A program made the translations under genes and the position numbers. Source: Halarcobacter sp. (GTDB lineage Bacteria; Campylobacterota; Campylobacteria; Campylobacterales; Arcobacteraceae). From it: a stretch of DNA of 64,000 nucleotides. Below are positions 3,911-36,119 of this stretch, in pieces. How positions within the stretch are numbered: the stretch's first letter is position 1; each line of letters opens with the position of its first letter. Below the pieces are notes generated by a model that was not told the origin of the DNA, did not search any database, and saw only the letters and a list, made by a program, of their open reading frames with translations. The stretch lies in contig NZ_OY780939.1 of the NCBI RefSeq assembly GCF_963675975.1, positions 620,001 through 684,000 of the forward strand. The letters are read 5' to 3'.

Positions 3911-4150
3911 TTAATTTTTGTTTTGTTCTTTTATTTTAGATATTAATTTAGGACCAAAACCTTTAATTGTAGATAGATCATCTATACTATTAATTTTTGT
4001 ATTTTTTCTATACTCAATAATAGCCTCTGCTTTTTTTTCTCCAATTCCCTTAATTGCCATTAATTCCTCTTTTGATGCAGTATTAAAATCAACTGCTGAA
4101 AAAAGTAATGTCGACAAAAACAAAATACTTAAAACAAGTTTCTTAATCAT
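3911..4150 (-). CDS. ComEA-like helix-hairpin-helix DNA-binding protein, exported
   Basis: A 79-residue protein with a signal-like N-terminus (MIKKLVLSILFLSTLLFSA) followed by FNTASKEEL and two helix-hairpin-helix motifs, IKGIGEKKAEAII and IKGFGPKLISKI. This is the compact ComEA form of Gram-negative bacteria, which binds DNA in the periplasm during natural transformation. The start was set at the ATG preceded by AAGGAGCGAAT; an upstream in-frame ATG (4180) lacks a ribosome-binding site. It is a monocistron ending in a strong hairpin. Confidence 0.85.
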   Translation of the reverse strand: MIKKLVLSILFLSTLLFSAVDFNTASKEELMAIKGIGEKKAEAIIEYRKNTKINSIDDLSTIKGFGPKLISKIKEQNKN

Positions 4151-33447: not shown

Positions 33448-34563
33448 ATGAAATTTATTATATTTGCAACAATTGTTTTAGCAGTAATGTCTTTATTAAC
33501 TTTTTACATATCAAAAAGGCTTGTAAGTAAACTTCATTTTTCTAATAAAATAAAAAGATATATAAATATATTTTTAATAATCAATCTTATTGGTGTTTTA
33601 GGTTATTTGGTAGTTAGATATAATCCAGTAGTTCCAAATCTAGTATACTTTTTACTATCTGTACCCATTGGAGTAATATTTTTATTGTTTATTGCAACTG
33701 TTATTTATGATATCTCTGCAAGTTTATTAAAAGTAGCTCCATTAAATGAAAATAGACGAACTTTTTTTAAAAAGAGTCTTGATGTCTCAGCACTGAGCCT
33801 TGCAAGTGCTGTAAATGCAAAAGCTATGTACAATGCGAGAAATATACAACTTGAAACTGTTGATGTTAAAATTAAAAATTTAAATAAGCCATACAAAATT
33901 GTTCAACTAAGTGATATTCACATAGGTGGTTTGATAGACAAAGAGTTTATATCATCTGTTGTAAATCAAGTTAATCTTCTAAAAGCTGATGTTGTTGTAA
34001 TTACAGGTGATTTAGTAGATACAGATATAAAGTATGCAAAAGAGGCCTTAGAGGAACTAAAGCATTTAAAATCTAAATATGGTACTTATTTTATAGTAGG
34101 AAATCATGAATACTTTCATGGAGTACAATCAATAATTGATTATGTAAATAATCTTGGTATAAAAACTCTAGAAAATGAAAGTGTTTATATAGGTAAAAGA
34201 GGTGAAGGATTTAATCTTTTAGGGGTTTATGATATTATGGGAAATAGAATCAATGCATATGCTCCTAATCTTAAAAGAGCTATGTTAAGTACAGATTCGG
34301 CTCCTAAAATACTTTTAGCCCATCAACCTAAATTTATTGAAGAGATAAAAGATGAAAAAATTGACTTAATCTTAAGTGGTCACACCCATGGAGGACAGAT
34401 TTTTCCTTTTAATTTTTTAGTTAAACTTCAACAACCTTATGTAAAAGGTTTAAATAAACATAATGAAAATACGCAAATTTATGTAAATAAAGGAACTGGA
34501 TTTTGGGGACCACCTATGAGATTGGGTGCTAGTTCAGAAATCACTCTTTTAAATATCTCTTAG
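33448..34563 (+). CDS. Membrane-anchored calcineurin-like metallophosphoesterase
   Basis: The 371-residue protein has three or so N-terminal membrane helices (to ~residue 95) followed by a YkuE-type phosphoesterase domain with all metal motifs: LSDIHIGG, TGDLVDTD, GNHEYFHG and SGHTHGGQIFPF. The enzyme is anchored with its catalytic domain on one face of the membrane; substrates of such proteins include lipid A intermediates or phospholipids in some species. A soluble paralogue lies at 47731-48438. The gene overlaps the convergent Crp/Fnr gene by 4 bases. Confidence 0.85.
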   Translation: MKFIIFATIVLAVMSLLTFYISKRLVSKLHFSNKIKRYINIFLIINLIGVLGYLVVRYNPVVPNLVYFLLSVPIGVIFLLFIATVIYDISASLLKVAPLNENRRTFFKKSLDVSALSLASAVNAKAMYNARNIQLETVDVKIKNLNKPYKIVQLSDIHIGGLIDKEFISSVVNQVNLLKADVVVITGDLVDTDIKYAKEALEELKHLKSKYGTYFIVGNHEYFHGVQSIIDYVNNLGIKTLENESVYIGKRGEGFNLLGVYDIMGNRINAYAPNLKRAMLSTDSAPKILLAHQPKFIEEIKDEKIDLILSGHTHGGQIFPFNFLVKLQQPYVKGLNKHNENTQIYVNKGTGFWGPPMRLGASSEITLLNIS

Positions 34564-35195
34564 ATAAATTCTTCTAAGAGTTTTTCATGATTTAGAATTA
34601 TTATATTTCTTTTATCTTTTTGGATAATACCTTTTTTTACAAAAGAGCTAATTTTTCGTGATAGAGTCTCTTCTCTTATATTTAATATTTCAGCTATTTT
34701 TATTTGTTTCATACTATTGATAGTTTTTTCATTATCATAAATAAATTTAGCTACTTTTGCATTTACATCAATGCTCACACTATTATTTATAAAACCCTCT
34801 AGATATTTAATTTTTTGACTTAAAGACTTGATAAAAAGCATTGCTATATCTTTTTTAAATAAAAATTCATCTCTAAATTTTTCATAATCTATAAGTATCA
34901 CTTCTCCTTTAGTTTCAAAAGAGCAATTAGCAGGAAAAGGTTTCTCTTCATAATTTGCAATCTCAGCTATAAAAGATAAGGCATTTATATTATGAATGAC
35001 TAATTCATTATCTTTGTAGTCATGTTTATATATTTTTACTATTCCCTTAACTAACAAATGCAAATATTTAGATTGATCTTTTTCATAAAATAAAATTTCA
35101 TCTCGAGAAAATTTTTTTAATACTGAAATCTCTTCTAATCTTTTAATCTCTGCATCATTTAATGAATTAAAAAAGTAATAGTCTCTTAAATTCAT
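34560..35195 (-). CDS. Crp/Fnr family transcriptional regulator
   Basis: A 211-residue protein with a cyclic-nucleotide-binding-like beta-roll (residues ~10-115; ILFYEKDQSKYLHLLVKGIVKIYK) and a C-terminal winged helix (~145-200; IKIAEILNIREETLSRKISSFVKKGII). The effector is not evident; it lacks the N-terminal cysteine cluster of Fnr. Such Crp/Fnr proteins in Campylobacterota often respond to nitrogen oxides or redox. It is alone on its strand. Confidence 0.87.
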   Translation of the reverse strand: MNLRDYYFFNSLNDAEIKRLEEISVLKKFSRDEILFYEKDQSKYLHLLVKGIVKIYKHDYKDNELVIHNINALSFIAEIANYEEKPFPANCSFETKGEVILIDYEKFRDEFLFKKDIAMLFIKSLSQKIKYLEGFINNSVSIDVNAKVAKFIYDNEKTINSMKQIKIAEILNIREETLSRKISSFVKKGIIQKDKRNIIILNHEKLLEEFI

Positions 35196-35409: not shown

Positions 35410-35823
35410 TTATTCTATTGCAATGGTTTTTTTTGTTTTAGTAGGTTCCACTTTAGGAATAATTACTTCTAAAACACCATCATTACTTTTTGCATTTATA
35501 TTTTCTATATCAACATTTTCTGGCATTGTAAAACTTCTTGAGAATTTTCCAAAAGAGGTTTCAACTTTATAATAATCTTCTTCTTTTACTTCCTCTTTTG
35601 TTTTTCTTTCACCTGAAATTGTTAAAACATTTTTATCTATATCTACTGAAATATCTTCTTTTTTAACACCTGGTAAATCAACATCTATATGATATGCACC
35701 ATCAGATTCTCTTGTATTTACTACTGGTACAAAACCATTTACACCTTCATTACTTGGATAATTATAAAAATTTTTTTCTAACTCTTTAAATTGTTTAAAA
35801 GGGTCAAATCTTGTTAATAACAT
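35410..35823 (-). CDS. Small heat-shock protein (Hsp20/alpha-crystallin)
   Basis: The 137-residue chaperone has an alpha-crystallin domain from ~residue 35 (AYHIDVDLPGVKKEDISVDIDKNVLTISGER ... GKFSRSFTMPENVD ... GVLEVIIPKVEP) and an N-terminus LLTRFDPFKQFKELE. It binds unfolding proteins under heat stress. Upstream lies a dense set of heat-shock operators (35846-35948). TAGGAGG-like sequence (AGGAGG) precedes the ATG. Confidence 0.93.
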   Translation of the reverse strand: MLLTRFDPFKQFKELEKNFYNYPSNEGVNGFVPVVNTRESDGAYHIDVDLPGVKKEDISVDIDKNVLTISGERKTKEEVKEEDYYKVETSFGKFSRSFTMPENVDIENINAKSNDGVLEVIIPKVEPTKTKKTIAIE

Positions 35824-35845
35824 CTTTTCCTCCTAAAAAATTATT

Positions 35846-35866
35846 CTTGATAGAATATTTATCAAG
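35846..35866. promoter_or_regulatory. HAIR-like inverted repeat in the hsp20 leader
   Basis: CTTGATA-N7-TATCAAG matches the geometry of the HspR operator (HAIR, CTTGAGT-N7-ACTCAAG). It begins near the expected transcription start of the minus-strand hsp20 promoter, so it could also form a 5' hairpin in the mRNA. Confidence 0.5.
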
Positions 35867-35874
35867 TTGAAAGA

Positions 35875-35903
35875 ATTATAACAAATATTTTAGCACTTGT
35901 CAA
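35875..35903 (-). promoter_or_regulatory. Consensus sigma70 promoter of hsp20
   Basis: On the minus strand TTGACA (35903-35898) and TATAAT (35880-35875) are separated by 17 bases. The -35 box lies inside the proximal CIRCE-like element. Confidence 0.75.
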
Positions 35904-35948
35904 TAGTATTTGCTAATATTTTTAGCAATATTAATATTTAAGTGCTAA
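35890..35948. promoter_or_regulatory. Tandem CIRCE-like HrcA operators
   Basis: TTAGCACTT-N9-ATTTGCTAA (35890-35916) and TTAGCAATA-N9-AAGTGCTAA (35922-35948) both keep the exact N9 spacing of CIRCE (TTAGCACTC-N9-GAGTGCTAA) and are five bases apart. The first covers the hsp20 -35 box. Confidence 0.72.
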
Positions 35949-36029: not shown

Positions 36030-36119
36030 TTATGCTATTGCTATGAATGTTGTAGCTATAGTTAAAAAATATATTGCTACTACTATTAAATAATCTTTTT
36101 TTGTTGTATTGATTTCCAT
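36030..36119 (-). CDS. 29-residue single-helix membrane peptide
   Basis: An ATG frame of 29 codons encodes a short charged start (MEINTTKKDY) followed by a single hydrophobic helix (LIVVAIYFLTIATTFIAIA) and TAA. It has an excellent ribosome-binding site (AAGGAGAAAAAG directly before the ATG). No family is recognised. It follows the unknown gene at 36207-36503 by 87 bases, in a segment with repeated GGAGAAAA arms that could switch its translation. Small size makes coding status provisional. Confidence 0.5.
   Translation of the reverse strand: MEINTTKKDYLIVVAIYFLTIATTFIAIA

Follow-up and report, generated by a model that had tools for sequence, protein, structure and literature searches.

The hsp20 promoter of Halarcobacter sp. 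raises two questions: which regulators act on a compact region that appears to hold three operators, and for what function the innermost of these, an inverted repeat where transcription would begin, has been conserved. The locus lies on contig NZ_OY780939.1, within a stretch of 64,000 nucleotides that was analysed as a whole (hereafter the window), and hsp20 is the sole PF00011 gene found by a genome-wide search of the 3.27 Mb genome. The CIRCE operator, bound by HrcA, has the consensus TTAGCACTC-N9-GAGTGCTAA, and the HAIR operator, bound by HspR in Campylobacter and Helicobacter, reads CTTGAGT-N7-ACTCAAG. An initial annotation, made from the window's sequence, described two elements with the N9 geometry of CIRCE, the first covering the -35 of a perfect TTGACA-N17-TATAAT promoter, and a HAIR-like repeat at the transcription start, and proposed joint control by HrcA and HspR. 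Both CIRCE elements are present as described, 32 bp apart start to start, and the first does contain the -35 hexamer of a perfect promoter on the minus strand; the repeat extends from about +2 to +22 relative to the inferred start (Table 1).

Table 1. Features of the hsp20 gene and its promoter, numbered from the first nucleotide of the window
Feature	Position	Strand	Description
hsp20	35410..35823	minus	137 aa small heat-shock protein, alpha-crystallin domain; PF00011 9e-26
Shine-Dalgarno AGGAGG	35829..35834	minus	read from sequence
CTTGATA-N7-TATCAAG inverted repeat, HAIR-spaced	35846..35866	minus	putative 5'-terminal stem-loop of hsp20 mRNA, possible HspR box
hsp20 transcription start, inferred from -10 position	35867..35869	minus	6-8 nt downstream of -10
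-10 hexamer TATAAT	35875..35880	minus	read from sequence
Proximal CIRCE (CIRCE 1), predicted HrcA operator	35890..35916	.	TTAGCACTT-N9-ATTTGCTAA
-35 hexamer TTGACA, within proximal CIRCE	35898..35903	minus	kept in 44 relatives
Distal CIRCE (CIRCE 2), predicted HrcA operator	35922..35948	.	TTAGCAATA-N9-AAGTGCTAA

The outer core of these elements, TTAGCA-N15-TGCTAA, occurs exactly twice in the window (0.03 copies expected from shuffles). Scanning the groESL and dnaK promoters for the same operator, as the initial annotation had advised, recovered it at groESL and at hrcA-grpE-dnaK, and also at clpB and htpG: the genome holds five exact cores, each upstream of heat-shock genes (one at hrcA-grpE-dnaK, two at hsp20, one at htpG and one at clpB), and copies with one mismatch lie upstream of groESL and, as a second copy, at hrcA. 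The hsp20 boxes share with known CIRCE operators their length, their N9 spacing and their outer TTAGCA/TGCTAA, and the system is typical in having hrcA in the genome and the usual chaperones as its remaining targets; in contrast, the inner bases depart from the consensus, the boxes form a tandem pair on an hsp20 gene, and the -35 lies inside a CIRCE, whereas the mapped CIRCEs of C. jejuni overlap the start site (PMC7464140). HrcA of C. jejuni binds CIRCE-like sites, and this binding is lost at 42 C (PMC8533110). Earlier mapping of the HrcA regulon in Campylobacterota concerned groESL and hrcA-grpE-dnaK of C. jejuni; the sequence evidence given here extends the regulon to hsp20, clpB and htpG in Arcobacteraceae, and our literature search found no paper on HrcA or HspR operators in Arcobacter.

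Two further arrangements of CIRCE were observed. At hrcA-grpE-dnaK, a pair of CIRCE-like repeats (L053:3956-3982 and 4023-4049) flanks the core promoter on both sides. At clpB (L056:3864-3890 and loci L158-L187), the Shine-Dalgarno sequence falls within the CIRCE's right half (AGGAGTGCTAA, directly 5' of the ATG), an arrangement kept across most of the family; in the transcript, pairing of this repeat could involve the ribosome site.

Both repressor genes, hrcA and hspR, whose absence would have counted against the initial annotation, were found in the genome. Upstream of grpE-dnaK, an open reading frame scores 246.9 bits against NF003033, NCBIfam's short model for HrcA, marginally below the cut-off of 248, and matches TIGR00331 at 1e-22. 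A search of the genome with Pfam PF01628 gave no match for HrcA; an absence of hrcA, as this negative could be read, was ruled out, since the NCBIfam match makes the Pfam result a limit of the model. HspR is matched by NF047375 with 116 bits (cut-off 105), and its gene adjoins and follows a cbpA-type gene. Genomes that lack HspR cluster in a few genera, so the co-occurrence of hsp20 and HspR among genomes was left unused.

Conservation of the promoter was assessed in relatives. hsp20 is present in 47 of 104 genomes of the family, and further named hsp20 loci, including those of Arcobacter and Malaciobacter, came from another collection. The 44 promoters scored were located by a shared string, TTGACAAGTGCTA, comprising the -35 and the right half of the proximal CIRCE, which makes the invariance of that string partly circular. 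The proximal CIRCE with embedded TTGACA is found in all 44; its left half TTAGCA, which was free to vary, is kept in 41, and a distal CIRCE with at most one core mismatch is found in 32. Many of the compared sequences are closely related, so that these and later counts overstate independence and p-values ignore relatedness. Because the proximal CIRCE and its embedded -35 are nearly invariant, control of the hsp20 promoter by HrcA is well supported as a prediction. The two CIRCEs lie 30/32, 41, 62-65 or 95-99 bp apart, start to start; a helical phasing in whole turns is only suggested by these spacings, the signal being weak (R 0.47 over 9 distinct spacings). Eight hsp20 genes (L093, L094, L095, L099, L100, L102, L103, and L127), from genomes mostly of the Sulfurimonas/Sulfuricurvum type, have no CIRCE; about 70-100 nt upstream of the gene they have in common another palindrome, near GCYACTTAAGTRGC.

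The assignment of the inverted repeat is less direct. Read as a possible HspR box at the transcription start, it has the sequence, position and N7 spacing attributed to it, and its CTTGA/TCAAG ends agree with the Campylobacter and Helicobacter HAIR, but it carries TA/TA in place of the inner GT/AC, lies at the transcript start and does not keep its spacing in every relative. CTTGATA-N7-TATCAAG has a single exact occurrence. The shorter core CTTGA-N11-TCAAG has three exact copies genome-wide, upstream of hsp20, cbpA-hspR and clpB; about three would be expected by chance (an estimate that allows for the A+T-rich composition), so that their number is near chance but their placement is not. Related sequences occur at groESL (CTTTAGT-N7-ACTCAAA, upstream of its -35) and at hrcA (CTTGACA-N7-ACTCATA, over its -35).

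For comparison, HspR boxes of the same family were taken from promoters of cbpA (42 scored) and clpB (41 scored). The clpB assignment is supported by the clpB promoters of genomes in which no HspR was detected (L188-L195), since these lack a HAIR over the -35; the clpB promoter of L196, a metagenome-assembled genome with 7% contamination and an HspR match, lacks it as well. The AC at the inner positions of the right half is present in 83 of 83 cbpA and clpB boxes and in none of 39 hsp20 elements, and the boxes lie over the -35 whereas the hsp20 element lies at the inferred transcript start. Each arm of the hsp20 repeat does match the left half-site of the cbpA box, the degenerate CTTGATT, and a TTGA-N11-TCAA core at HspR-box spacing is found in 39 of the 44 hsp20 promoters; these 39 were chosen by that core, whose invariance among them is circular. 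In C. jejuni, HspR binds degenerate HAIRs of low affinity and binds cooperatively with HrcA at groESL (PMC7464140).

Read as RNA, the repeat of the window is predicted to form a stem of 7 bp with a loop of 7 nt, and several features of its variation would fit a paired structure. Arm positions 6 and 7 are Watson-Crick in 36/39 and 31/39 hsp20 elements, respectively, and never in the 83 HspR boxes. The outermost pair changes in concert among hsp20 elements (CG 31, GC 4, TG 4; n=39), in contrast to the cbpA boxes (CG 24, GC 7, CC 8, GG 3; Fisher p=0.0005, uncorrected for relatedness). One-sided changes at position 7 include four A-C mismatches, which are unfavourable for RNA pairing; an argument for strand asymmetry from G-U wobbles at positions 1 and 6 was dropped, the wobbles being offset by these mismatches. 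Five of the 44 relatives have lost the spacing or sequence of a HAIR and kept a hairpin: L061 has an 8-nt loop and two U-G pairs, in L124 and L125 the stem is longer and the spacer shorter (loops of 3 and 6 nt, respectively), and L122 and L120 have stems of different sequence. All five still have HspR. They represent few independent events: on a tree of the Hsp20 proteins, at least two changes are needed for these five relatives, and two for the G-C end pair. The element begins 8 nt past the -10 in 35 of 39 promoters, although the spacer between -35 and -10 is 17 or 18, and from this fixed distance the repeat appears to track the inferred (unmapped) transcript start.

Predicted folding of the 5'UTR points the same way. 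hsp20 5'UTRs fold more stably than their shuffles (mean z -2.34, n=44), whereas control 5'UTRs of cbpA do not (mean z +0.13, n=27); in two relatives, L085 and L098, the predicted hairpins are weak (z -0.45 and -0.17) and the core is nonetheless kept. When the window's own 5'UTR is folded without its start codon, the structure of lowest energy is a different one, in competition with the simple hairpin. Stabilising stem-loops at the 5' terminus are known from E. coli (e.g., papA), the aprE leader of B. subtilis and the vacA 5'UTR of H. pylori. The predicted hsp20 stem-loop resembles these in lying within about 3 nt of the inferred mRNA 5' end and in leaving the Shine-Dalgarno mostly free; it differs in that its stem is short, AU-rich and coincident with a HAIR-like sequence, and its stabilising effect is putative. 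The genome encodes an RNase J (match of 644 bits), and no match to RNase E/G was detected in it. B. subtilis also uses RNase J, and there mRNAs are stabilised by 5' hairpins (PMC3997798); work cited in PMC7509114 describes an H. pylori mRNA stabilised by a stem-loop in its 5'UTR.

With modest confidence, we favour a model in which HrcA represses hsp20 and the repeat forms a stabilising stem-loop at the 5' end of the mRNA. At normal temperature, HrcA would occupy the proximal CIRCE around the -35, and probably the distal one too, and so block RNA polymerase; by analogy with C. jejuni, heat would inactivate HrcA and release a strong promoter. The repeat would be the first transcribed sequence of hsp20, and its main conserved role would most likely be to guard the message, as a stem-loop, against decay that depends on the 5' end. 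HspR may also bind the repeat in DNA, though its affinity here is probably lower than for the cbpA and clpB boxes. If so, one repeat would be both an operator for HspR where transcription begins and a protective 5'-terminal stem-loop, and derepression and message stability would be tied to the same bases; we regard this double role as rather unlikely. Conservation of an operator-like palindrome for the RNA that it encodes would in turn counsel caution in calling HAIR boxes from geometry alone.

Dual control, in which HrcA would act at the CIRCEs and HspR at the HAIR-like box, is the principal alternative, and we hold it to be a real, if less probable, possibility. Its layout would be that of the clpB promoter in reverse, where an HspR box covers the -35 and a CIRCE the start. 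The HrcA half of this proposal is strongly supported, both by the genome-wide regulon and by what relatives have conserved; the HspR half is possible, with the stem-loop fitting the variation better. Retention of the TTGA-N11-TCAA core in 39 of 44 relatives makes HspR binding at hsp20 plausible: it exceeds what a purely structural hairpin would require, and a core shared in this way is difficult to account for unless HspR or descent from such a box is invoked. The presence of both repressor genes, the location of the other two exact CTTGA-N11-TCAAG cores at cbpA-hspR and clpB, the match of each arm to the cbpA half-site and the tolerance of C. jejuni HspR for degenerate sites, together with its cooperation with HrcA (PMC7464140), all favour dual control. 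Against it stand the missing inner AC, the placement at the start instead of the -35, the covariation of the outer bases, unlike that of cbpA boxes, and the loss of HAIR spacing or sequence in five relatives that retain HspR, since loss of the geometry while the hairpin persists is hard to explain by HspR alone. Weighing core retention against loss of geometry puts the stem-loop somewhat ahead; the two readings are compatible, and our confidence in one does not exclude the other.

RNA thermometers are known for many small heat-shock genes. In favour of a 5'UTR that would mask its Shine-Dalgarno in the cold and unfold on heat shock, folding of the window's own 5'UTR predicts, at 20-42 C but not at 50 C, a second, weak hairpin that takes in the Shine-Dalgarno region. 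We consider a thermometer improbable, because the Shine-Dalgarno lies outside the conserved stem and is mostly unpaired in the relatives' predicted folds at 37 C, and a search of Rfam returned no credible match. A conserved palindrome at a promoter could also be the operator of some other DNA-binding protein, but the core agrees with that of HspR boxes in this family and the spacing varies among relatives, and to this reading we give the least credence of all.

Two neighbouring genes were noted. An unannotated open reading frame of 29 aa with a Shine-Dalgarno (36030-36119, minus strand; MEINTTKKDYLIVVAIYFLTIATTFIAIA) has one hydrophobic, membrane-like stretch and no match in Pfam or NCBIfam, and at least 10 relatives have similar frames of 28-32 aa (M..INTNKKDY.IV..IY..TI.TTFI) upstream of hsp20. 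Downstream of hsp20, a gene for a Crp/Fnr-family regulator occupies positions 34560-35195 of the minus strand.
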